Positions 38,151 to 51,048 of a DNA stretch of 64,000 nucleotides are shown piece by piece. A program made the position numbers and the translations under genes. The notes below the pieces were generated by a model. It ran no database searches. It saw only the letters and a program-made list of their open reading frames with translations, and had not been told where the DNA came from. Within the stretch, counting starts at the first letter, position 1, and each line of letters opens with the position of its first letter. The DNA comes from Bordetella sp. BOR01 (lineage in GTDB: Bacteria > Pseudomonadota > Gammaproteobacteria > Burkholderiales > Burkholderiaceae_B): assembly GCF_019218885.1 (NCBI RefSeq), contig NZ_JAHUWT010000002.1:868001-932000 (forward strand), read 5' to 3'.

Positions 38151-38828
38151 ATGCTGCTCAAGCGCTTATCGATTTTCTTGACCATGGCGTTGGCCATGGC
38201 GCACAGCGTGGCCGCCACGCCGACGGGCGCGCCCCTGGACAGCCGCTTGCGCCAGGCGGCGGCCACGGGCAGCGCGCAAGACGTGCAGGCCTTGCTGCGG
38301 CAAGGGGCCGCGGTCGAGGCGCGCGACAGCCGGGGGCGCACGCCCTTGCTGATTGCCACGCACCACAACAACGTGCCGGCCGCCCAGGCGCTGGTGCAGG
38401 CCGGCGCCGATGTGAACGCGCAGGACGCCATCCACGACAGCCCCTATTTATATGCCGGTGCGCGCGGCCACGACGAGATCCTGGCCATGACGCTGGCGCA
38501 CGGCGCCGACCTGAAAAGCACCAACCGCTATGGCGGCACGGCGCTGATTCCCGCTGCCGAGCGCGGCCACGTGCAGACGGTACGCACCCTGATCGCCGCC
38601 GGCGTCGAGGTGGACCACGTCAACAACCTGGGCTGGACCGCCTTGCTCGAGGCCGTCATCCTGGGCGATGGCGGGCCCCGGCACGTGCAGATCGTGCAAC
38701 TGCTGGTCGATGCCGGTGCCGACGTCGACCTGGCCGACGGCCAGGGCGTGACGGCGCTGGCGCACGCGCGCCGCTCGGGCTACGCCGACATGGTGCGCAT
38801 CCTGCAGCAGGCCGGCGCGCGCGGCTAG
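38151..38828 (+). CDS. Secreted ankyrin-repeat protein
   Basis: A 225-residue protein with a signal peptide of about 22 residues (MLLKRLSIFLTMALAMAHSV) and five ankyrin repeats from about 30 to 220, for example GRTPLLIATHHNNVPAAQAL and GGTALIPAAERGHVQTVRTL. Such periplasmic ankyrin proteins serve as protein-binding scaffolds; no partner is evident. GAGGTGG precedes the ATG at 38151. The stop overlaps the stop of the convergent LacI gene by 4 bases. Confidence 0.88.
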   Translation: MLLKRLSIFLTMALAMAHSVAATPTGAPLDSRLRQAAATGSAQDVQALLRQGAAVEARDSRGRTPLLIATHHNNVPAAQALVQAGADVNAQDAIHDSPYLYAGARGHDEILAMTLAHGADLKSTNRYGGTALIPAAERGHVQTVRTLIAAGVEVDHVNNLGWTALLEAVILGDGGPRHVQIVQLLVDAGADVDLADGQGVTALAHARRSGYADMVRILQQAGARG

Positions 38829-39862
38829 GGCAGGTTCTCGCGGAAGATCACATCGGTGCGCGTGGCCTCTACGCCCGACAGCATGCTGCGATGTTCGCGC
38901 AGGTTGGTGAAGATGCGGATGCTGTTCAGGATGGTCGTCAGGGGGCTTTGGTTGATGACGGCATCCATCCCGCCGTCGATCAGCAGCGCGCGCGTATCCG
39001 GCGTCAGGCCATGGCCGATGAACGCGATGTCGTGCTGCTTGCCGCATTCTTTCAAGGCCTGGCCGATGCCTTCGGCGCCGCCGCCGATGTTGTAGATGGC
39101 GGCCAGGTCGGGGTGCTCTTTGAGCAGCGCCAGGGTCTGGCGATAGTTGGTCTGGGTGTCGTCGTAGCCTTCGCGCAACCCCACTACGCGCATCTGCGGA
39201 TACTGCTCGGCGAACAAGTGCAGGAAGCCCGCCTCGCGCTCTTCATGGGCGCGGTAGCTGAGCGACCCGGCCAGCATTGCCACCTTGGCGCCGCGCCGCG
39301 CCGGCCCCAGGAAGCGGCCGATCAGGTGCGCCGCCGTGCGCCCGGCGGCGCGGTTGTCCAGGCCCACATAGGCACTGCGCCGCGAGTGCGACAGGTCTGA
39401 GACCAGCGTGACGCTGGGAATGCCCTGGTCGGCAAGCTCGGCCACCGCCTCGCGCACCTTGGGGTGTTCCAGCGCCATGAAGGCCACGCCGTCGCATTGC
39501 TTGCCGCGTCGTCGCAGAATGTGCGTCAGCGCGTCGGGGTCGAAGCTTTCCACCGGCGCCACGCGGCAACTGACGTTGTAGGGCGCCCAGTGTTCCTGCG
39601 AGTGCCGCACCCATTCGCCCAGCATCGACAGGAAGCGGCTGCTGCGGTCGGGCAGGATGAACAGCAGCCGCATCGGCGGCGGAGCCATGGCGGCATACAG
39701 TTCGGCCTGGGGCAGGTACTGCAGGTCGGCGGCTGCTTTCAGTACCCGCTGCAGGGTTGCCTGGCGCACGCCTGGGCGACGATGCAGCGCGCGGTCGACC
39801 GTGGCCGGCGAGACACCGGCCAATCGCGCAATATCAATCACGGTGGGCAAAGCCTGGGGCAC
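38825..39862 (-). CDS. LacI-family transcriptional repressor
   Basis: A 345-residue LacI regulator starting at GTG (GGGAG about 8 bases upstream). The DNA-binding domain is PTVIDIARLAGVSPATVDRA (about 6-25) plus a hinge, and the sugar-binding-protein-like effector domain spans 63-340. The VDRALHRRPGVR variant is typical of the branch sensing sugar acids or inositol-like compounds. It is divergent from the SDR-TRAP-RuBisCO-like operon. In the shared space TTGCGG is directly repeated at 39878-39893. It probably represses the operon until its acid sugar is present. Confidence 0.87.
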   Translation of the reverse strand: MPQALPTVIDIARLAGVSPATVDRALHRRPGVRQATLQRVLKAAADLQYLPQAELYAAMAPPPMRLLFILPDRSSRFLSMLGEWVRHSQEHWAPYNVSCRVAPVESFDPDALTHILRRRGKQCDGVAFMALEHPKVREAVAELADQGIPSVTLVSDLSHSRRSAYVGLDNRAAGRTAAHLIGRFLGPARRGAKVAMLAGSLSYRAHEEREAGFLHLFAEQYPQMRVVGLREGYDDTQTNYRQTLALLKEHPDLAAIYNIGGGAEGIGQALKECGKQHDIAFIGHGLTPDTRALLIDGGMDAVINQSPLTTILNSIRIFTNLREHRSMLSGVEATRTDVIFRENLP

Positions 39863-40023
39863 CGGGTTTCTCCCAATTTGCGGAAACTTGCGGGCTATAC
39901 CTTACACGGATTGCCGAGGTGAACCTCAAAAGCCATCAAAAAACGGGCTTGGGATTTTGCCGGCCGCGCCCCTATCCTACGCAACTATCTGCAGCAGCGC
40001 CCCGGGCGCAAACAAGGAAAAAG

Positions 40024-40824
40024 ATGGAGACAACAGGCAGGTTGGCCGGCCGCGTGGCCCTGGTATTCGGCGCCGGTTCGGTGGGCGAAGGCTGGGGCAA
40101 TGGCAAGGCCGCCGCGGCCGCGTATGCCCGGCAAGGCGCCCGGGTGGTGGCGGTGGACCGTGTGCAGGAAGCCGCCCAGGCCACCCAGGACGCGATTCGC
40201 GCCGAGGGCCACGAGGCCGTGGGCGTGCAGGCCGACGTCACCAACTTTGCCGACATCCAGCGCGTGGTGGACCATGCCTTGTCGCTGTATGGCCAGGTCG
40301 ACGTGCTGCACAACAATGTGGGCATTACTTCGCAGGGCGGTCCGGTGGAAACCGGCGAAGACGTCTGGGACCGCGTCATGACGGTGAATGTCAAGAGCAT
40401 GTTCCTGACCTGCAAGGCGGTGCTGCCGCACATGGAAGCGCGCCAGAGCGGCGCCATCATCAACATCGGGGCGCTGGGCGGCGTGCGCTGGACGGGCTAC
40501 GCCTATTGTGCCTACGCGGCTTCGAAGGGCGCGGTGAATTCCTTTACCCAGAGCGTGGCGCTACAGTACGCCGCCAAGGGCATCCGGGCCAACTGCATCC
40601 TGCCCGGCGTGATGGATACGCCCCATATCTACCAGCAGATCTCGGGCTTCTACCAGAACACCCAGGAAATGGTGCAGGCGCGCAATAAGTTGTCACCCAC
40701 CGGCCGCATGGGCGATGGATGGGACGTGGCTCACGCCGCGGTGTTCCTGGCTTCGGACGAGGCACGCTACATCAATGGCGTTGAGCTGTTCGTGGATGGA
40801 GGCATGCACGCCCGCTGCAACTGA
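40024..40824 (+). CDS. Short-chain dehydrogenase/reductase lacking the catalytic serine
   Basis: A 266-residue SDR. The cofactor loop is extended (GAGSVGEGWGNGKAA, residues 16-30), Asp45 (VVAVDRV) favours NAD+, and Tyr164/Lys168 (YAASK) are present. The NISS segment carrying the catalytic Ser reads NIGA (147-150), so Ser is replaced by Ala. Activity could be altered or assisted by another residue. AAGGA precedes the ATG by 7 bases. It opens the operon with TRAP transport, VOC, RuBisCO-like and kinase genes, so oxidation of an imported sugar acid or lactone is likely its job. Confidence 0.85.
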   Translation: METTGRLAGRVALVFGAGSVGEGWGNGKAAAAAYARQGARVVAVDRVQEAAQATQDAIRAEGHEAVGVQADVTNFADIQRVVDHALSLYGQVDVLHNNVGITSQGGPVETGEDVWDRVMTVNVKSMFLTCKAVLPHMEARQSGAIINIGALGGVRWTGYAYCAYAASKGAVNSFTQSVALQYAAKGIRANCILPGVMDTPHIYQQISGFYQNTQEMVQARNKLSPTGRMGDGWDVAHAAVFLASDEARYINGVELFVDGGMHARCN

Positions 40825-40920
40825 TTCGAGCCCGGAACCGGCGCCATGGCGGGCGGGCCGGTACGGAAATTTCCAACATCGCTGGCCCGAGCCGGCGAAC
40901 TGTGCACAGGAGACAGTGCC

Positions 40921-41955
40921 ATGACAGATAACAAGACCTTCACGCGCCGCAGTGCGCTGCGCACCCTGGCAGGCCTGCCTTTGGCCGCCACCATGATCGG
41001 CGTGCCGCGGCTGGCCGCGAGCGCCGCGCCGGAATACGTGTTCAAGTACGGCAACAACCTGCCGACCAGCCATCCGCTGAACATCCGGGCGCTGGAAGCC
41101 GCCGCCCGCGTCGCCAAGGAAAGCAACGGCCGCATGGAAGTGCGGGTGTTCCCCAACAACCAGTTGGGCGGCGACACCGACATGCTGGCGCAAGTGCGCA
41201 GCGGCGGTATCGACATGTTCAATGCCGGCACCATGGTGATCGCGACGCTGGCGCCCATCAGCGCGATCACCGCCATGGGTTTCGCGTTTTCCAACGACGA
41301 AGAAGTCTGGAAAGCGGTCGACGGCAACCTGGGCAACAGCATTCGCGCCGCGTTCGCCAAGGTGGGGCTGTATACGCTGGACAAGATGTGGAACAACGGC
41401 TTTCGCCAGATCACCAGCAGCTCGCGGCCCGTGGCCACGGCCGCCGACCTGGATGGCATGAAGATCCGCGTGCCGGTCAGCCCGATGGGGATATCGCTGT
41501 TCAAGTCCCTGTCGGCTGCGCCCACCAGCCTGCAGTTCAGCGAGGTGTATTCCGCCCTGCAGACCAAGGTGGTGGATGCCCAGGAAAACCCCCTGGCCAT
41601 CGTGCAGACCGCCAAGCTGTACGAAGTGCAGAAATACTGCTCGCTGACCAACCACAGCTGGGACGGCTACCACCTGGTGATCAACGGCCGCGCCTGGCGC
41701 GGCCTGCCGGACGACCTGAAGACCATTTATGCACGCGCCTTCAATGAAGCCGGCTTGCAGCAGCGCGATGACCTGGTCAAGCTCAATACCACCCTGCAGG
41801 ACGAACTGACCTCCAAGGGCCTGCAGTTCAACGCCGCCGAGGCACAGAGCTTTCGCGAGCAACTGCGCAAGGCCGGCTTCTATGCCGAGTGGAAGCAGAA
41901 GTTTGGCGACCAGGCCTGGGCTTTGCTGGAAGAATCCGTCGGCAAGGTGTCCTGA
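40921..41955 (+). CDS. TRAP transporter solute-binding protein, DctP family
   Basis: A 344-residue periplasmic receptor with a twin-arginine-like leader (TRRSALRTLAGLPLAATMIG) and cleavage near SAA-PEYV. The DctP fold is clear: YGNNLPTSHPLNIRALEAAA, MEVRVFPNNQLGGDTDMLAQ, and the ligand-Arg region GMKIRVPVSPM near residue 180. ADALMYQLQ-like features are replaced by SALQTKVVDAQENPLAIV near 212. AGGAG lies 9-13 bases before the ATG. Its stop overlaps the start of the fused membrane subunit. The ligand is probably the acid sugar used by the downstream enzymes. Confidence 0.93.
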   Translation: MTDNKTFTRRSALRTLAGLPLAATMIGVPRLAASAAPEYVFKYGNNLPTSHPLNIRALEAAARVAKESNGRMEVRVFPNNQLGGDTDMLAQVRSGGIDMFNAGTMVIATLAPISAITAMGFAFSNDEEVWKAVDGNLGNSIRAAFAKVGLYTLDKMWNNGFRQITSSSRPVATAADLDGMKIRVPVSPMGISLFKSLSAAPTSLQFSEVYSALQTKVVDAQENPLAIVQTAKLYEVQKYCSLTNHSWDGYHLVINGRAWRGLPDDLKTIYARAFNEAGLQQRDDLVKLNTTLQDELTSKGLQFNAAEAQSFREQLRKAGFYAEWKQKFGDQAWALLEESVGKVS

Positions 41956-43859
41956 TGTCGGCGGGCCACGAGACCAAGGCCTGGGTGGCCGGGCCGCTGC
42001 CGGCCGCGCCGGCCAGGCAGCGTTCGGACACGGGCCTGCTGGCCTGGATGGACCGCGCCCTGGGCGTGGTGTCCGAATGGCCGGCGGCCTTGCTGGTGCT
42101 GGTCGAGGTGGCCGTGCTGTTGTCCGGCGTGGTGGCGCGCTACGTGTTTCATGAGCCCATCGTCTGGACGGACGAGCTGGCCTCGATCCTGTTCCTGTGG
42201 CTGTCGATGCTGGGTGCCGTGATCGCGCTGCGGCGCGGCGCGCACATGCGCATGACGGCCGTGGTGGCCAAGTGCGCTCCGGACACACGCGCCTTCCTGG
42301 AGACGTTCGCGCTGGCCGCCGCCCTGGTGTTCCTGGTGCTGCTGATTCATCCCGCCTGGGAATACGCTTACGAAGAAGTGATCATCGTCACGCCCGCCAT
42401 GGAGATCAGCAATGCCTGGCGCGCCGCCGCGCTGCCCGTGGGCACCTTGCTGATGCTGCTGGTATGCGTGGTGCGCCTGCTGCGTACCGAGCACACGCGG
42501 CACGTGATGCCGGCACTGCTCGCCGCCGTGGCCATCACGCTGCTGTTCTGGCTGGCGGGGCCCTGGCTGATGACGCTGGGCAAGCTGAACTTGCTGATTT
42601 TCTTCGCCGGCGTCGTGGGCGCCTGCGTATTCGCCGGGGTGCCCATCGCTTTCTCTTTTGCGTTGGCGACCTTCGGCTTCCTGGCCCTGACCACGCGCAC
42701 GCCCATGCTGGTGATGGTGGGGCGGCTGGACGAAGGCATGTCGCACCTGATCCTGCTGGCGGTGCCGCTGTTCGTGCTGCTGGGCATGCTGATCGAGATG
42801 ACCGGCATGGCGCGCGCCATGGTGCAGTTCCTGTCCAGCCTGCTGGGCCACGTGCGCGGCGGGCTGAACTACGTGCTGATCGCCGGCATGTACCTGGTGT
42901 CGGGCATTTCAGGTTCCAAGACCGCCGACATGGCCGCCATTGCGCCGGTGCTGCTGCCGGAAATGAAAAAACGCGGCGCCAAGCCGGGCGACCTGATCGC
43001 GCTGCTGTCGACCACGGGCGCGCAGACCGAGACCATTCCGCCGTCCATCGTGCTGATCACCATCGGCTCGGTGACCGGCGTGTCGATCTCGGCGCTGTTC
43101 ACCGGCGGCATGCTGCCCGGCCTGGTGCTGGGCCTGGCGCTGTGCGTGATCGTGTGGTGGCGCTATCGCCATGAAGACCTGAGCAACGTCCCGCGCGTAT
43201 CGCGCGGCTTGATCGGCAAGAGCTTCCTGGTGGCGCTGCCTGCCCTGGCATTGCCTTTTGTGATACGCGCGGCGGTGGTCGAGGGCGTGGCCACGGCCAC
43301 CGAAGTGTCGACCATCGGCATCGCCTATTCGGTGATTGCCGGCCTGCTGCTGTATCGCCAGTTCGACGTCAAGCGCCTGCCCGGCATCCTGATCGAGACC
43401 GCGACGCTGTCGGGCGCCATCCTGTTCATCATCGGCTGCGCCACGGCCATGGCCTGGGCATTGACGCAATCAGGCTTCGCGCACGACCTGGCCGAGGCCA
43501 TGAGCGGCCTGCCCGGCGGCAAATACACCTTCATGGCCGTGTCGCTGGTGGCGTTCATCGTGCTGGGCAGCGTGCTGGAAGGCATACCGGCCATCGTGCT
43601 GTTCGGGCCGCTGATGTTCCCGATTGCGCGCGCCGTGGGCATCCACGAAGTGCAGTACGCCATGGTGGTCATCCTGGCCATGGGCGTGGGCCTGTTCGCC
43701 CCGCCGTTCGGAGTGGGCTACTACGGGGCCTGCGCCGTGGGCAAGGTCGATCCCAACGAGGGCATCGGCCCCATCTGGGGCTATATGGCCGCGCTGCTGG
43801 TGGGCCTGGTCCTGGTGGCGGCCATTCCCTGGATTTCCATCGGTTTTCTCGACAACTGA
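41955..43859 (+). CDS. Fused TRAP transporter permease, DctQ-DctM
   Basis: A 634-residue membrane protein joining the small DctQ domain (about residues 30-200, four helices; WTDELASILFLWLSMLGAVI) to the large DctM domain (about 205-630, roughly 12 helices; GVPIAFSFALATFGFLAL, VSGISGSKTADMAAIAPVLL). In many TRAP systems these are separate genes; fusions are known. It imports the receptor's cargo with sodium. TGATG overlap with the receptor gene shows coupled translation. Confidence 0.93.
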   Translation: MSAGHETKAWVAGPLPAAPARQRSDTGLLAWMDRALGVVSEWPAALLVLVEVAVLLSGVVARYVFHEPIVWTDELASILFLWLSMLGAVIALRRGAHMRMTAVVAKCAPDTRAFLETFALAAALVFLVLLIHPAWEYAYEEVIIVTPAMEISNAWRAAALPVGTLLMLLVCVVRLLRTEHTRHVMPALLAAVAITLLFWLAGPWLMTLGKLNLLIFFAGVVGACVFAGVPIAFSFALATFGFLALTTRTPMLVMVGRLDEGMSHLILLAVPLFVLLGMLIEMTGMARAMVQFLSSLLGHVRGGLNYVLIAGMYLVSGISGSKTADMAAIAPVLLPEMKKRGAKPGDLIALLSTTGAQTETIPPSIVLITIGSVTGVSISALFTGGMLPGLVLGLALCVIVWWRYRHEDLSNVPRVSRGLIGKSFLVALPALALPFVIRAAVVEGVATATEVSTIGIAYSVIAGLLLYRQFDVKRLPGILIETATLSGAILFIIGCATAMAWALTQSGFAHDLAEAMSGLPGGKYTFMAVSLVAFIVLGSVLEGIPAIVLFGPLMFPIARAVGIHEVQYAMVVILAMGVGLFAPPFGVGYYGACAVGKVDPNEGIGPIWGYMAALLVGLVLVAAIPWISIGFLDN

Positions 43860-43887
43860 TCACCCCTTTTTCGCACGGGAGCATTTC

Positions 43888-44427
43888 ATGAGCCGATTCC
43901 TCGGCCAGATTCGCCAGTTGGGCTATGTGGTGCCCGACATCGAGGCCGCCATGGCCTATTGGAGCAAGACGCTGGGCGTCGGGCCCTGGTTCTACAACCC
44001 GCGCGTGCCCATCGTGAACTATCGCTACGACGACCAGCCGTACGAGCCGCACAATTCCGTGGCGCTGGCCAATTCCGGCTACGTGCAGGTCGAGCTGATC
44101 CAGACCCGCAACGACGTGCCCTCGATGTATCGCGATTTCCAGCAGGCGGGCCGTACCGGGCTGCAGCACGTGGCCTACTGGACCGAAGACTACGATGCCG
44201 ACCTGGAGCGCTTGCTGGGCCAGGGCTTCAAGCCCAAGATGAGCGGCGAAGTGGGTGATCGCGGCCGCTTCATTTACTTCGATACCGAATTCCATCCGGG
44301 CACCGTGATCGAGCTGTCCGAGGTGGCGGGCCCGAAGGGGCGCATGTTCCAGCAGATCCGCGAAGCCGCCGACGGCTGGGACGGCAGCGATCCGGTGCGC
44401 CCGTTTCCGAACCTGGGGGCGCAATGA
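43888..44427 (+). CDS. VOC (glyoxalase/epimerase) superfamily protein
   Basis: A 179-residue protein with the paired beta-alpha-beta-beta-beta modules of the VOC fold (LGYVVPDIEAAMAYWSKTLG at about 11-30 and LQHVAYWTEDYDADLERLLG at about 91-110). His93 and the Glu of VIELSEVAG (near 145) can serve as metal ligands; the usual first-module His is Gln (RQLGY). VOC proteins isomerise, epimerise or cleave. Position between the TRAP permease and the RuBisCO-like gene, overlapping the latter by ATGA, ties it to the same pathway, perhaps as an isomerase or lactone-handling enzyme. Reaction unknown. Confidence 0.82.
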   Translation: MSRFLGQIRQLGYVVPDIEAAMAYWSKTLGVGPWFYNPRVPIVNYRYDDQPYEPHNSVALANSGYVQVELIQTRNDVPSMYRDFQQAGRTGLQHVAYWTEDYDADLERLLGQGFKPKMSGEVGDRGRFIYFDTEFHPGTVIELSEVAGPKGRMFQQIREAADGWDGSDPVRPFPNLGAQ

Positions 44428-45698
44428 GCGCAGGGCGCATCCTGGCCAGCTACGTCATCGAGACACCGCTGGACCCGGCTTCCGTGGCCGAGGTGATGGC
44501 GGGCGAGCAATCGTGCGGCACCTTCACCCGGGTGGCGGGCGAGACCGACGCGCTGCGCGCCCGCGCGCGCGCGACGGTGGAAGCGGTGCAATTGCTGGAT
44601 GAAACCGGCCAGCCCAGCTTGCCCAACGCGCTGCTGGAACGGCGGCGCCAGGCGGGGCCGTGGCGCCGCGCCCGCGTGGATATTGCCTTTCCGCCGGCCA
44701 ACATCGGCGCGAACCTGCCCACGCTGGCCAGCACGGTGGCGGGCAACCTGTACGACCTGGGCGAAGTCACCGGGCTGCGCCTGGAAACCCTGCACTTGCC
44801 GGCCGAGTACCGCGCGCGCTTCGATTTCCCGCGCGCCGGTATTGCCGGCACGCGGCGCGCCGCCGGCGTGCCGGCCGGTGCACTGGTGGGCACCATCATC
44901 AAGCCCAATGTGGGGTTCTCGGCCGAAGACACGGCCGAGCTGGTTGGCCGGCTATGCGCGGCCGGTGTGGATTTCATCAAAGACGATGAAGTCTGCGCCG
45001 ACCCTGAACACGCGCCGTTGGCACAGCGCGTGCCGGCCGTGATGCGCGTGGTGCGCGCCCATGCCGAACGCACCGGCAAGCGCGTGATGGTGGCGTTCAA
45101 TATCACCGACGAGACCGACGCCATGCGGCGCCATGCCGACCTGGTCGAGCGCGAGGGCGGCACTTGCGTCATGGCCAGCCTGAATGCCTGCGGCTATTCG
45201 GCCATCCAGACCCTGCGGCGCCATACGCCGCTGGTGCTGCACGGCCATCGCAACGGTTTCGGCGCGCTGTCGCGCCATCCGCTGCTGGGCATCGGCTTCC
45301 AGGCCTACCAGACCCTGTGGCGGCTGGCGGGCGTGGACCACATGCACGTGCATGGCCTGCAAGGCAAGTTCTCGCAGCCCGACGAAGAGGTGATCAGCGG
45401 CGCGCGCGACTGCTACACGCCGCTGGCGCAAGGGCTGGCGCATGACGACACCGTGATGCCGGCGTTCTCGTCCGGCCAGTGGGCGGGCACCGTGCCGGCC
45501 ACCTGGGCGGCCATCGGCCGCGATGACCTGCTGTTCATGGCGGGCGGCGGCATCCTGGCGCATCCGGACGGCGCGGCCGCCGGCGTGGCCAGTATCCGCC
45601 AGGCATGGGATGCGGTGCGCGCCGGCCGCGGCCTGGCCGAGTATGCCAGCCAGGCGCCCGAGCTGGCGCGCGCGCTGGCGTTTTTCGGCGCGCGATGA
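44424..45698 (+). CDS. RuBisCO-like protein (form IV)
   Basis: A 424-residue RuBisCO-fold protein. Most active-site positions are kept: Asn108 (GNLYDLG), Lys160 (TIIKPN), the carbamate/metal cluster Lys186-Asp188-Glu189 (FIKDDE), His273/His275 (LHGHRNGFG), Lys315 (LQGKFSQ), Ser349-Ser350 (AFSSGQW) and GGG 374-376. The second lysine of the RuBisCO KPK motif is Asn162, so CO2 fixation is not expected. Family knowledge: RuBisCO-like proteins next to DUF1537 kinases act on 3-oxo-isoapionate 4-phosphate as decarboxylase or transcarboxylase (OiaX/OiaT). That reaction type is inferred here from pairing with the kinase. Confidence 0.9.
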   Translation: MSAGRILASYVIETPLDPASVAEVMAGEQSCGTFTRVAGETDALRARARATVEAVQLLDETGQPSLPNALLERRRQAGPWRRARVDIAFPPANIGANLPTLASTVAGNLYDLGEVTGLRLETLHLPAEYRARFDFPRAGIAGTRRAAGVPAGALVGTIIKPNVGFSAEDTAELVGRLCAAGVDFIKDDEVCADPEHAPLAQRVPAVMRVVRAHAERTGKRVMVAFNITDETDAMRRHADLVEREGGTCVMASLNACGYSAIQTLRRHTPLVLHGHRNGFGALSRHPLLGIGFQAYQTLWRLAGVDHMHVHGLQGKFSQPDEEVISGARDCYTPLAQGLAHDDTVMPAFSSGQWAGTVPATWAAIGRDDLLFMAGGGILAHPDGAAAGVASIRQAWDAVRAGRGLAEYASQAPELARALAFFGAR

Positions 45699-46996
45699 GC
45701 CTGCCCGCGCCACGCCTGGCGTACTACGGCGACGATTTCACCGGAGCCACCGACGCGCTTGCCACCGCCACGCGCGCCGGCCTGCGCAGCCTGTTGTTCC
45801 TGGGCGTACCCACGGCGGCGCAGCGCGAGCGTGCCGGCCCGCTGGACTGCCTGGGTATTGCCGGCGCCACGCGTGCCATGGACCCCGGCACCATGCGCGC
45901 GGCATTGCAGCCGGTGGCGCAGTTCTTCGCCGGCCTGCAGCCGCGCGTGGTGCACTACAAAGTGTGCTCCACCTTCGACAGTGCCGGCCAGGTCGGCAAT
46001 ATTGCCGTGGCGATGCAAGTGCTGGGCGCTGCCATGCGCCAGCCCTGGCCTGTCATTGTCGGTGGGCAGCCCAGCCTGGGGCGCTATTGCGTGTTCGCCC
46101 AGTTGTATGCGGCGGCCGACGGCGAGGTCCATCGCATCGACCGGCACCCCACCATGAGCCGCCACCCGGTTACGCCCATGCACGAGGCCGATTTGCGGCG
46201 CCACTTTGCCCACTTGGGGGCGGGGCGTGTGGGGTCGGTTGATTACCGCACCTGTGCGGCGGGGCACGACGCTATCCAGGCCCGCTTGCGGGCGCTGCGC
46301 GCGCAAGGCATGGATGCCGCGCTGTTCGATGTGGCCGAATCGGCGCATCTCGAGGCGATCGGCGCCGTGCTGGCGGGGTGGGCGGCGGCCGAGCCGCTGC
46401 TGGCGGTGGGCGCCAGCAGCGTGATCGAGGCGCTGGGCAGCCAATGGGGCAATGCCGCCAAGGCACGGCCCGATGCTTTTGCGGCGGCCCAGGGGCCCGT
46501 GCTGCTGCTGGCCGGCAGCCTGTCGCCGGTGACGGCGCGACAGGTCGAGGCCGCCAGGTCGTATCAAAAAATCCGGTTGGATCCGGTGCGCCTGGCCAGC
46601 GACGACGGCGCCTATCGCGCCGCGTCGGCGGCCGAACTGGCACAGGCCTTGCGCGACGGGCGCCATGTGCTGGCCTGGATCGACAACGCACAGGGCCAGC
46701 GCACTGCCGGCGTGCAAAGCCAGGCCTTGGCCCGGGCAGGCGGGCGCCTGCTCGACACGGTGCTGCGGCAGGTGCGCATTGCCCGCATGGGCGTGGCGGG
46801 CGGCGATAGTTCCAGCCTGGCCATGCAGGCGCTGGATGCCTGGGGCCTGTCGCACCTGGCGCGCATCGAGCCGGGCGTGGCCTTGTGCCGCGTGCACAGC
46901 GACGTGCCGGCCCTGGACGGCATGGAAGTCATGCTCAAGGGCGGACAGATGGGGTCGGTGGATCTGTTCGAACGGTTCTTGCGCGGGTCGGATTAG
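45695..46996 (+). CDS. DUF1537 four-carbon/acid-sugar kinase
   Basis: A 433-residue two-domain kinase: N-terminal sugar-acid domain starting YYGDDFTGATDALATA (residues 9-24) and C-terminal ATP domain with VAGGDSSSLAMQAL (near 368) and VMLKGGQMGSVDLFERF (near 412). The family (OtnK, DtnK, OiaK) phosphorylates 3-oxo-tetronates or 3-oxo-isoapionate. The usual GGETSG motif reads GGDSSS here. The start overlaps the RuBisCO-like gene stop (ATGA), so the products are made together: kinase first, then RuBisCO-like C-C cleavage is the likely order. Confidence 0.9.
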   Translation: MSLPAPRLAYYGDDFTGATDALATATRAGLRSLLFLGVPTAAQRERAGPLDCLGIAGATRAMDPGTMRAALQPVAQFFAGLQPRVVHYKVCSTFDSAGQVGNIAVAMQVLGAAMRQPWPVIVGGQPSLGRYCVFAQLYAAADGEVHRIDRHPTMSRHPVTPMHEADLRRHFAHLGAGRVGSVDYRTCAAGHDAIQARLRALRAQGMDAALFDVAESAHLEAIGAVLAGWAAAEPLLAVGASSVIEALGSQWGNAAKARPDAFAAAQGPVLLLAGSLSPVTARQVEAARSYQKIRLDPVRLASDDGAYRAASAAELAQALRDGRHVLAWIDNAQGQRTAGVQSQALARAGGRLLDTVLRQVRIARMGVAGGDSSSLAMQALDAWGLSHLARIEPGVALCRVHSDVPALDGMEVMLKGGQMGSVDLFERFLRGSD

Positions 46997-48030: not shown

Positions 48031-48133
48031 TGAATCTCAAAAAAACATCCCTTTACGGTCACTGTTTGCTTACCTACCATGCTTCACCACGCAGGCCGTT
48101 CCATGGCCTGCGCATTTATTTTCAATCGAGGCA

Positions 48134-50059
48134 ATGAACATGCATGGTGGTCCCGGCGCTTCTCCGGCCGATGCGTTGCGGCGCATCGCAGCAGGCGTGC
48201 AGCAGATCGATATCGGCGTCCTGCTGTTCATCGGCATCGACGTGTCCATGCGCGATGGCACGCTTCTGACCGCGAATGTGTACTGCCCCGCGCCACCGGG
48301 CGAGGCGGCCGGCGGCGCGCTGCCCGTGGTGCTGGAGCGCACGCCTTACGGACGGGCATCGGCCCGCTTTCATGATTTCGGCCTGGCCGCTGCGCGGGCG
48401 GGCTACGTGTTCATGATCCAGGACGTGCGCGGGCGCGGGGATTCAGGCGGGCGGTTCCATATGATGACCAATGTGCCGGACGAAGGCGTGGATGGCATCG
48501 ATACCTGGAACTGGCTGCTTGCCCAGCCGTGGTGCGATGGCCGCCTGGCCACGGTAGGCGGCTCATTCAGCGCGGCCAACCAGCAGGCCATGGCGCTGCA
48601 TCGGCCGGCGGGCTTGCGCGCACAGGTGCTGCGGGATGCCGGGACGAATTACCGGCAGCGCATGTTCAGATACCACGGCGCGTTCAATGTCGGCGTGGCG
48701 CTGCCTTGGGCGATCGAGCATGGCCTGCAAAGCCCGCAGGCCCGGGATGATGCCGGCGTGCGCGATGCGTTGACGGCGATGCGCGAACGTTCGGCGCAGT
48801 GGGCCGACGAACTGCCTTTGCGGCGCGGCCAATCTGCCCTGGCCTCGGCCCCCGATTATGAAGATGTGTACTTCGCGATGCTGGAAACGGCAGACGACAC
48901 CTCTTATTGGCACAATCCCACCGTGCGGCTTGAAGGCCGCTGGGATGACTACCCCGATGACGTTGCCGTGCTCATGGTGTCGGGTTGGTTCGCCCACCAT
49001 GCCAACGCCAATCTCGACAAACTGCGCGAACTCGGACGCCGGCTGAAACAGCCCGTGCGGCTGGTCATGGGGCCCTGGGTGCACAGTCCGGCCATGCTGG
49101 AAGCCACCTCGGCCGGCGAGGCCGAGTTCGGCCCGGCTGCCGGGCAGCATGGCCCCATCCACGCGGCTTGGCTGGCCTGGCTGGACAGGTTCGTGCTTGG
49201 GCACGAGAACGGCGCGGGGGACGAACCTGCCTTGCGCTATTTCGTCATGGGCCTGGGCGATGGGCACAAGACTGCCGAAGGGCGTGTCTTTCACGGCGGG
49301 CAATGGCGAGAGTCGGCCGAATGGCCGTTGCCGTCCACTCTTGCCACCCCCTATTACCTGCACGCAGACGGCCGGCTCGGTATCGATCGGCCTTCCGTCG
49401 GCGCGGCGCCGCTGGGTTATCGATATGACCCTGCCGATCCCTGCCCGGGTATCGGCGCAAGCAGCCTGCAAAGCGAGACTTTCCCCGCCTTCGTCCTGCC
49501 GGGCCCGCGCGACCAGCGTTGCCGCCCGACGCTGACGGCGTGCCGCGGCAGCGACCGGCCCTTGGCCGAGCGCGCGGATGTGCTTGTTTTCCAGACGGAA
49601 CCCCTGGCCCAGGATTGCGAGGTGACCGGCCCGCTGTCCGTCCGGCTGTGGGTGGCCTCGTCGGCGCCCGACACCGACTTCACTGCCAAGCTGCTCGACA
49701 TCTATCCGCCCAGCGCCGATTTTCCCGACGGCGTGGCCTTGCTGTTGTCCGAGGGCATACTCAGGATGCGTTATCGAGACGACCGTGCCACCGGCGAATT
49801 GATCGAGCCCGGTCGCGAATACGCGGTCACCGTCGAACTGAATCCGACCAGCAATGTGTTCAAGGCCGGGCACCGTATTCGGCTGGACATTTCCAGTTCC
49901 AGCTTTCCCGAATACGACCTCAATCCCAATACCGGTGAGGCGCCGGGGGCGCACACGCATACGCAGGTGGCCACGCAGACCTTGTTCGTCGACGGTCTAC
50001 GGGCCTCGCATATTGTGCTTCCCCTGCAACCTATCAGCGCTGAAGGAATCTCGGCATGA
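48134..50059 (+). CDS. CocE/NonD-type serine hydrolase (X-Pro dipeptidyl-peptidase S15 family)
   Basis: A 641-residue alpha/beta hydrolase. The nucleophile is Ser144 (VGGSFSAAN, a variant of GxSYxG), the oxyanion Tyr lies in RTPYGRA (near 72), the acid Asp is unclear (SGWFAHHANANLD near 290) and the His is in MGPWVHSPAM (near 318). A C-terminal jelly-roll domain (about 420-640, GPLSVRLWVASSAPDTDFTA) completes the cocaine-esterase architecture. Substrates of the family are esters, amides or beta-lactams. No signal peptide, so probably cytosolic. The Bug gene overlaps its stop (ATGA). Confidence 0.86.
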   Translation: MNMHGGPGASPADALRRIAAGVQQIDIGVLLFIGIDVSMRDGTLLTANVYCPAPPGEAAGGALPVVLERTPYGRASARFHDFGLAAARAGYVFMIQDVRGRGDSGGRFHMMTNVPDEGVDGIDTWNWLLAQPWCDGRLATVGGSFSAANQQAMALHRPAGLRAQVLRDAGTNYRQRMFRYHGAFNVGVALPWAIEHGLQSPQARDDAGVRDALTAMRERSAQWADELPLRRGQSALASAPDYEDVYFAMLETADDTSYWHNPTVRLEGRWDDYPDDVAVLMVSGWFAHHANANLDKLRELGRRLKQPVRLVMGPWVHSPAMLEATSAGEAEFGPAAGQHGPIHAAWLAWLDRFVLGHENGAGDEPALRYFVMGLGDGHKTAEGRVFHGGQWRESAEWPLPSTLATPYYLHADGRLGIDRPSVGAAPLGYRYDPADPCPGIGASSLQSETFPAFVLPGPRDQRCRPTLTACRGSDRPLAERADVLVFQTEPLAQDCEVTGPLSVRLWVASSAPDTDFTAKLLDIYPPSADFPDGVALLLSEGILRMRYRDDRATGELIEPGREYAVTVELNPTSNVFKAGHRIRLDISSSSFPEYDLNPNTGEAPGAHTHTQVATQTLFVDGLRASHIVLPLQPISAEGISA

Positions 50060-51048
50060 ATTTGTTCTTTTCCTCTTCCGTACGCCGCCGGCTCAGTGCG
50101 GCGCTCTTGGCCGCCGGAGTATGCGGCGGCGCGCCCGCGCTGGCCGCGCAGGACTACCCCGCCCGCCCGTTGACGATGGTTGTTCCCTTCTCGGCCGGGG
50201 CCACCGCCGATACGCTGGGCCGCATGATAGCGCGCGAGATGCAGGACGAACTGGGCCAGACGGTCGTGGTGGAAAACCGCGCCGGCGGCGGCAGCACGAT
50301 AGGAGCCGCCGCCGTGGCGCGCAGCGCGCCCGATGGCTATACCCTGTTACTGGGTTCGGGTTCTACCCACACGGTGGCGCCGGTGGTCATCAAGGACATG
50401 AAATACGACCCCGTGAAAGACTTCCAGCCCATTGCGCTGATCGGCACGACTTCTTATGTGGTACTGGTCAATGCCGATTCACCGATGCGTACGCTGGCCG
50501 ACCTGGTTGAGTACGGCAAGACGCATCCGCAGAAACTGAGCTACGGTTCGACGGGCGTCGGCGGTGCCGTGCACCTGGCTACAGTGATGCTCCAGAACCA
50601 GACCGGCGCCAGCTTCCTGCATGTGCCCTATCGCGGCGGGGCACCAGCCATCGCCGATTTGCTGGGCGGCCAGATCGATTTCACACTGGGAACGGCCGAG
50701 GCCGCGGGCATGGTCAGCCAGGGCAAGCTTCGCGCGCTGGCTGTGCTGGGTCCGGATCGCCTGCAGGCGCTGCCCGATGTTCCCACGTGCAACGAAACAG
50801 GCGTGCCCGATTGCACGTTTCCGGTCTGGAATGCCATCTTCGCGCCCGCCGGCACGCCTGCGCCTGTCGTGGCCAAGCTGACGGCGGCCGTGGAGCACGC
50901 CTTGGCCGAGCCGCAGACGGTGACGCGCCTGCGCGAGCTGGGATATCAACCCGCGACGGGCGGCGCCGAAGCGCTGGGCAAACGTGTCGTCGAAGAGTCG
51001 GTTTTCATGCACAAGACCGCAGCGGCGGCAGGGGTCCAGCCGCAATAG
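50056..51048 (+). CDS. Bug-type (TctC) substrate-binding protein
   Basis: A 330-residue receptor with a signal peptide of about 31 residues (RRRLSAALLAAGVCGGAPAL, cleavage near LAA-QDYP). RPLTMVVPFSAGATADTLGR, QTVVVENRAGGGSTIG and APDGYTLLLGSGSTH (near 97) are the family hallmarks. Its start overlaps the CocE-type hydrolase stop, so receptor and hydrolase are made from one message, implying the receptor binds the ester/amide or its product. Confidence 0.93.
   Translation: MNLFFSSSVRRRLSAALLAAGVCGGAPALAAQDYPARPLTMVVPFSAGATADTLGRMIAREMQDELGQTVVVENRAGGGSTIGAAAVARSAPDGYTLLLGSGSTHTVAPVVIKDMKYDPVKDFQPIALIGTTSYVVLVNADSPMRTLADLVEYGKTHPQKLSYGSTGVGGAVHLATVMLQNQTGASFLHVPYRGGAPAIADLLGGQIDFTLGTAEAAGMVSQGKLRALAVLGPDRLQALPDVPTCNETGVPDCTFPVWNAIFAPAGTPAPVVAKLTAAVEHALAEPQTVTRLRELGYQPATGGAEALGKRVVEESVFMHKTAAAAGVQPQ

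Follow-up and report, generated by a model that had tools for sequence, protein, structure and literature searches.

A conserved cassette of a RuBisCO-like protein, a VOC-fold protein and a DUF1537 kinase in Bordetella, candidate for sugar-acid catabolism

In the OtnK/OtnC pathway, a DUF1537 kinase phosphorylates 3-oxo-tetronate and the resulting 3-oxo acid 4-phosphate is then decarboxylated by OtnC, a class II aldolase-fold protein and not a RuBisCO-like protein (RLP). The nearest characterised kind of system to the locus analysed here is the OiaX/OiaC and OiaK pair of D-apiose catabolism, in which an RLP likewise lies beside a DUF1537 kinase. The enzymes of the D-apiose pathway include an oxidoisomerase, a kinase and a decarboxylase, according to the excerpted text of PMC11747546, and one RLP family member is reported, in the excerpt of PMC6302742, to be a transcarboxylase/hydrolase that puts the carboxylate back. 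The same excerpt describes RLPs such as MtnW that enolise a diketo phosphate. For D-hamamelose, the available part of PMC8914248 cites an RLP oxygenase (Kim 2018) in a pathway that ends in 3-phosphoglycerate and glycolate.

We analysed a stretch of 64,000 nucleotides from Bordetella sp. BOR01 (the window), which carries an RLP gene in a cassette with the order LacI regulator, SDR oxidoreductase (in part of the loci), TRAP importer, VOC-fold protein, RLP and DUF1537 kinase (Table 1). This cassette is a conserved variant of RLP/DUF1537-kinase systems, with five to six genes kept together from Bordetella and Variovorax to Azospirillum and a Roseobacter-group plasmid. The literature searched, which covered subscription journals thinly, held no paper on a VOC-RLP cassette; a description may exist elsewhere.

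Gene cassette and its distribution

Table 1. Features of the cassette, in window coordinates
Feature	Position	Strand	Basis or remark
LacI-family regulator, divergent	38825..39862	-	in 82/83 VOC-linked loci with wide flanks
SDR oxidoreductase, start uncertain	39985..40824	+	in 14/93 VOC-linked loci, window included
TRAP solute-binding protein DctP	40846..41955, start likely nearer 40921	+	family models; best PDB match 4OAN, E 4.6e-125
Fused TRAP permease DctQM	41949..43859	+	family models
VOC-fold protein (Glyoxalase_4), 179 aa	43888..44427	+	Pfam PF13669, E 4.2e-25, scanned from upstream start 43699
RuBisCO-like protein (RLP), 424 aa	44424..45698	+	main feature under study
Asn162 codon, RuBisCO Lys177 position	44907..44909	+	alignment; Asn in 92/93 VOC-linked, Ser in 23/23 ApnO-linked RLPs
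KDDE: carbamate lysine K186, metal ligands D188 and E189	44979..44990	+	all three invariant in 134/134 RLPs
K315 codon, loop-6 lysine (RuBisCO K334)	45366..45368	+	alignment
DUF1537 (SBD_N + NBD_C) acid-sugar kinase, OiaK-like	45695..46996	+	Pfam PF07005, E 4.1e-53; PF17042, E 4.1e-26

The RLP reading frame runs from ATG to TGA with no internal stop, its ATG overlapping the VOC stop codon by 4 bases and its stop overlapping the kinase ATG by another 4, an arrangement that fits translational coupling of the three genes. One match to the RLP query was found in the 6.18 Mb genome. The nearest named relatives are from Bordetella petrii MY10 (93%) and B. genomosp. 4 (89%), and at E 1e-100 matches occurred in 23 of 81 related genomes, this one included, and in five of nine within the genus. 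Comparison of the RLP codons with those of Bordetella petrii (locus L002) gave 122 synonymous and 30 replacement differences, which suggests purifying selection. The VOC frame as mechanically called begins at a TTG at 43624, inside DctQM, and so includes 43624-43887 as extra sequence; the start at 43888 is supported by the alignment of 84 relatives, in which Met1 (partly by construction) and Ser2 are invariant.

Around the best 80 of at least 581 RLP relatives, we found the kinase in 80 loci, the VOC gene in 79, LacI in 77, DctP in 65 (63 at 45% identity or more) and the SDR at 45% or more in 12, some of the absences being contig ends (L043, L060, L061). Twelve of these 80 loci lack both DctP and DctQM despite sufficient sequence length; the importer in all six that were inspected resembled, by eye, a polar amino-acid-type ABC transporter, with an SBP_bac_3 domain by Pfam in L005. 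The gene order of the window recurs in four annotated plasmid records and in L156 and L157, with the permease split in two of these six. The RLP, the kinase and the VOC protein gave no match to anti-phage families.

For residue and neighbour comparisons we assembled 134 distinct RLPs (162 proteins less 29 duplicates, plus that of the window), leaving out three own-genome loci with a match and keeping every other matching locus. Recruitment was biased, VOC-linked sequences having been gathered by similarity to the window protein and ApnO-linked ones mostly through the OiaX model and plasmid hits. Labels assigned by tblastn (VOC at 150 bits or more, ApnO at 120 bits or more with a query identified by annotation and context; the window by hand) gave 93 VOC-linked and 23 ApnO-linked RLPs, 18 with neither neighbour (10 with wide flanks, 8 narrower) and none with both. 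The kinase lies in the same locus for 92 of the 93 VOC-linked and all 23 ApnO-linked RLPs. Where VOC-linked RLPs had 5 kb or more of sequence to either side (n = 83), the kinase accompanied 83, LacI 82, DctP (at 300 bits or more) 67 and the SDR 14; among the 23 ApnO-linked loci this LacI was found in none and this DctP in two.

Just downstream of the cassette, at 48110-51048, a large frame tentatively read by eye as a CocE/NonD-type hydrolase overlaps a frame for a TTT/Bug-type solute receptor; the large frame had no match in 85 loci outside the window.

Active site and family placement of the RLP

The initial annotation had proposed an RLP with an intact carbamate and metal site in this frame, and the exact reading frame, the motifs, the Pfam RuBisCO_large domain (E 6.4e-65) and the alignment all bear this out. 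The motifs comprise FIKDDE (K186, D188, E189), HGHR (H275, R276), GKF (K315, F316), SSG (S349-G351), GGG (G374-G376), KPN (K160, N162) and TF (T33, F34). We compared the active site by pairwise alignment with the form I large subunit RbcL of Cupriavidus necator, in what we take to be spinach numbering, anchored on the carbamate lysine; RLP residues 275-351 were numbered by motif because of a one-residue indel. Fifteen of twenty RuBisCO positions are kept (E60=E28, T65=T33, N123=N108, K175=K160, K201=K186, D203=D188, E204=E189, H294=H275, R295=R276, H327=H308, K334=K315, S379=S349, G381=G351, G403/404=G375/376) and five are changed (W66=F34, T173=I158, K177=N162, L335=F316, G380=S350). The RLP thus has an intact carbamate and metal site, the lysine of loop 6 and most residues of the phosphate sites. 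Of the departures, the initial annotation had correctly picked out Asn162 for Lys177 and Phe34 for Trp66 and missed the other three.

The AlphaFold2 model of the RLP (pLDDT 82, below 50 at 191-193 and 278-287) places it in the RuBisCO superfamily by fold as well as by Pfam domain. Its best match is PDB 3NWR (Z 49.9, 2.5 Å over 402 residues, 68% identity of aligned residues), and it also matches archaeal RuBisCO 2cwx (Z 41.6) and 2zvi, the MtnW comparison (Z 40.6); the superposition proposed with the initial annotation was made here at the level of fold. 3NWR, from Burkholderia fungorum, belongs to the same subfamily (640.6 bits over residues 6-424) and has both KPN and TF; its title says only 'a rubisco-like protein', and the cassette gives this solved but functionally unassigned branch of the RuBisCO family a concrete, testable genomic setting.

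The carbamate lysine, the two metal acids, K175, H294, R295, K334, G403 and G404 do not vary across the 134 RLPs. The window RLP shares four of its five changes with its OiaX-like, ApnO-linked relatives: W66F (Phe at position 34, also in 93/93 VOC-linked RLPs), T173I and G380S occur in 23/23 of the ApnO-linked sequences and L335F in 22/23. Among the twenty active-site positions only 162 separates the two groups, with Asn in 92/93 VOC-linked and Ser in 23/23 ApnO-linked RLPs; the 18 with neither neighbour have Ser (12), Ala (2), Asn (2) or Lys (2), the last only in RuBisCO-type sequences. Because the other four changes are common and 162 alone splits the groups, Asn162, on these alignments, marks a clade and is no isolated peculiarity. 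The initial annotation had taken Asn at Lys177 as the mark of an enzyme that does not carboxylate; this is weakened by the retention of K175 and K334 and by the OiaX-like RLPs, which likewise have no lysine at this position.

In RuBisCO, N123, H294, H327, K334 and S379 act after the enediolate. Within the 134 RLPs, N123, H327 and S379 were changed together in only three (L151, L152 and L154), the same three in which E60 is Asp; these read D/G/Q/C at positions 60, 123, 327 and 379, whereas the window RLP reads E/N/H/S. All 93 VOC-linked RLPs keep N123, H327 and S379, and E60 too is unchanged in the window clade. L151 and L152, both from plasmid records, exceed the cut-off of the OiaX model NF042437, which is named a decarboxylase (760 and 777 bits, cut-off 700), and L154 was placed with them by its residue pattern. 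The window RLP scores 422 bits with this model, its best NCBIfam hit. No match above the cut-off was found in 150 genomes of the window's order, four others, 248 genomes of the Ancylobacter family and 385 of the Azospirillum class. Likewise, the best named model for the window kinase, NF042436 (OiaK, 3-oxo-isoapionate kinase), gave 296.7 bits against a cut-off of 700, and that for OtnK 179 against 350.

VOC and ApnO as alternative neighbours

At K177 the window RLP has Asn where its OiaX-like relatives have Ser or Ala, and its cassette has VOC rather than ApnO. In the 64 kb of the window the single ApnO-like query reached nothing better than E 2.0, and in the genome it had no match at E 1e-5, in a search without a positive control. 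To follow the alternation we used a tree of 78 RLPs with the VOC-linked ones thinned to 37 (a single search, for which the program warned of long branches including L166); the comparison with OiaX and OiaC runs through family models, the characterised A. radiobacter OiaC and X. autotrophicus OiaX lying outside this tree. The VOC label required 4 changes, as compared with a mean of 26.3 for shuffled labels, and the main VOC clade unites 38 RLPs (36 VOC-linked, 2 unlabelled) with 100/98 support. The alternation thus follows phylogeny, indicating that independent switches were few.

One natural swap is seen in L142, where a VOC, TRAP and LacI module accompanies an RLP that groups with L169 (support 100/96) within the ApnO clade and a kinase that, among seven kinases scanned, is the closest to OiaK (551 bits). 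Judging from this locus, what the VOC and ApnO front ends supply seems to be one compound or two closely similar ones. L166 and L167 have an OiaX-like RLP and kinase accompanied by an orthologue of the window SDR (55-56%) and a related DctP (50-51%); VOC and ApnO are both missing from these stretches. Our reading is that VOC, ApnO and SDR/TRAP are interchangeable front ends onto one RLP/kinase core.

The predicted metal ligands of the VOC protein, Q10, E69, H94 and E142, are invariant in 84/84 aligned cassette VOCs, and this Q-E-H-E set is presumably that of glyoxalase I, an enediolate proton-transfer enzyme. Among solved structures the closest in sequence is 3gm5 (E 5.9e-13), whose name says no more than that it is related to lactoylglutathione lyase.

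We considered, and rejected, the VOC protein as an obligate partner of the RLP. Among the 23 VOC matches listed for 248 genomes of the Ancylobacter family, 14 (at 72% or less) have no adjoining OiaX-model match and the remaining nine (at 76% or more) do. VOC matches at E 1e-25 occurred in three of 200 genomes of the window's order, all with the cassette and one with a second, distant copy. VOC and TRAP genes occur without an adjacent RLP in L208-L211; in L209 and L210, whose stretches contain no RLP, they are joined by a DUF1537 kinase and an enzyme of the PdxA family (L209 by Pfam, L210 by similarity and by eye), possibly as a parallel route for the same imported compound, and L208 and L210 also have a DeoC/LacD aldolase. 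More distant VOC relatives lie in acyl-CoA-type or TTT-linked clusters. With matches outside RLP loci, the substrate of the VOC protein is not fixed by the RLP context alone.

A VOC relative (50%) also occurs in L207 and L216 with an SDR 42-45% identical to that of the window, TTT receptors and a LacI-like regulator (L216 by eye), and in L207 with a ChrR-type cupin.

Candidate pathway and competing explanations

We propose, with a probability of roughly 0.55, that the cassette serves to break down a short sugar acid, probably a 2-branched one, and that the RLP, as its terminal enzyme, decarboxylates the beta-keto-acid phosphate made by the kinase. The substrate, the chemical steps and the order of SDR, VOC and kinase given here are those that gene order and its conservation, protein families, residues and the VOC/ApnO alternation make plausible. 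The TRAP transporter would import the sugar acid, which the SDR (where present), the VOC metal enzyme or both would convert into a beta-keto acid of the 3-oxo-isoapionate type (2-hydroxy-2-substituted-3-oxo-4-hydroxybutanoate), and the kinase would phosphorylate its 4-hydroxyl. The RLP, with Mg2+ on carbamylated K186, D188 and E189, would then strip the carboxylate to leave an enediolate, which may take a carboxylate back at the other carbon before being hydrated and cleaved, as by an OiaX-type transcarboxylase/hydrolase, to 3-phosphoglycerate and a C2-type acid.

Gene adjacency and family models make the adjoining kinase a plausible source of the RLP's phosphate, as first suggested. The RuBP-like phosphate then envisaged is unlikely, since the kinase belongs to the acid-sugar kinases and a beta-keto-acid monophosphate suits better than a bisphosphate. 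Nor is action 'without fixing CO2' established: the nearest chemistry decarboxylates, and one family member is reported to return the carboxylate.

In favour of the sugar-acid pathway, we count that the best named family of both RLP and kinase is the OiaX/OiaK pair, below cut-off; the shortfall itself counts against it. The nearest solved DctP, 4OAN, whose modelled ligand we take to be 2-acetolactate, a 2-hydroxy-2-methyl-3-oxo acid, is counted for a 2-branched 3-oxo acid. 2-Acetolactate is also listed as a TRAP ligand, with the protein unnamed, in the accessible part of PMC5812351. A gene 100% identical to 4OAN (L139) adjoins one for an AMP-binding enzyme, with no RLP in the 18.5-kb stretch, which counts against inferring the substrate from 4OAN, so that its neighbourhood is a weak hint; the structure model of the cassette DctP, from 6 sequences, had a pLDDT of 40, too poor for ligand inference. 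Also in favour of the proposal, BKACE-family (beta-keto-acid cleavage enzyme) genes lie beside such kinases in L166 and, by annotation, in L151. Four further observations count against it: VOC and TRAP genes are found together in L208-L211 with no RLP next to them, the kinase and PdxA of L209 and L210 would suit a hydroxy acid rather than a beta-keto acid, the SDR accompanies few VOC-linked RLPs (Table 1), and the amino-acid-type ABC importer of the TRAP-less loci is odd for a plain sugar acid.

For the fate of the enediolate, we lean weakly towards transcarboxylation and hydrolysis over simple protonation, because the RLP keeps N123, H294, H327, K334 and S379 and because enolase and pyruvate kinase genes lie near two OiaX-like RLP/kinase pairs, on a Cupriavidus plasmid (L086) and a haloarchaeal plasmid of Haloterrigena (L155), as expected if 3-phosphoglycerate is the product. 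Neither gene is annotated in six VOC-type plasmid stretches, which counts against 3-phosphoglycerate. The best match to glycolate oxidase in the genome scored 534 bits (model cut-off 568), which speaks neither way. If the RLP does re-fix the released CO2, it would represent RuBisCO carboxylation chemistry in a heterotroph with Asn at Lys177, and would inform which residues make a carboxylase.

The strongest competitor is possible but doubtful: the RLP may be a plain 3-oxo-acid-4-phosphate decarboxylase of the OiaC type, its enediolate being protonated to give, with CO2, a tetrulose phosphate, and the VOC protein then acting as isomerase or epimerase on this tetrulose phosphate or on an upstream intermediate. 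That a model named for a decarboxylase, NF042437, tops the NCBIfam matches agrees with this, and the VOC ligands, presumably those of glyoxalase I, suit an isomerase. However, the residues altered in both RLPs that pass the decarboxylase model (N123, H327 and S379) are kept throughout the VOC-linked RLPs, and the four annotated cassettes share no additional enzyme that would act on ketose phosphates.

A more specific version of the sugar-acid pathway, which we put forward as quite unlikely, is that the VOC protein, as a metal-dependent isomerase working on its own, replaces ApnO without redox chemistry (for example by a ketol-acid carboxylate shift, with the SDR oxidising where present) and feeds an RLP that decarboxylates and then re-fixes CO2 on the neighbouring carbon. 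If true, the VOC superfamily would gain a new activity, and heterotrophs would have a second, independent front end feeding carboxylation chemistry of the RuBisCO type.

We regard as improbable the original view of the RLP as an enolase or tautomerase that does no carboxylate chemistry and has a RuBP-like or MtnW-like sugar phosphate as its substrate. The RuBisCO fold, common to MtnW (2,3-diketo-5-methylthiopentyl-1-phosphate enolase), and the intact metal site would allow it, and enolisation of a diketo phosphate by RLPs such as MtnW has precedent (PMC6302742, in excerpt). Nevertheless, the RLP gave only 136 and 158 bits with the MtnW models TIGR03332 and NF007095 (cut-offs 514 and 409), no methionine-salvage gene is among the annotated neighbours in four plasmid cassettes, and the partner is an acid-sugar kinase.

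Finally, it is highly improbable that the RLP truly carboxylates RuBP or is an oxygenase like the one proposed in the hamamelose pathway: K175, K201 and K334 are kept and the available part of PMC8914248 reports a CO2-uptake phenotype for an RLP mutant besides citing the oxygenase, but five of the twenty positions of the full carboxylase active site are changed (K177N, W66F, T173I, L335F, G380S), the form III RuBisCO model TIGR03326 gave 241 bits against 497, and 14C counts for one strain in that paper contradict its text. In that strain, CIAT652, the counts in the part available were 1047 for the mutant and 630 for the wild type, opposite to the diminished fixation in the mutant that the text describes.
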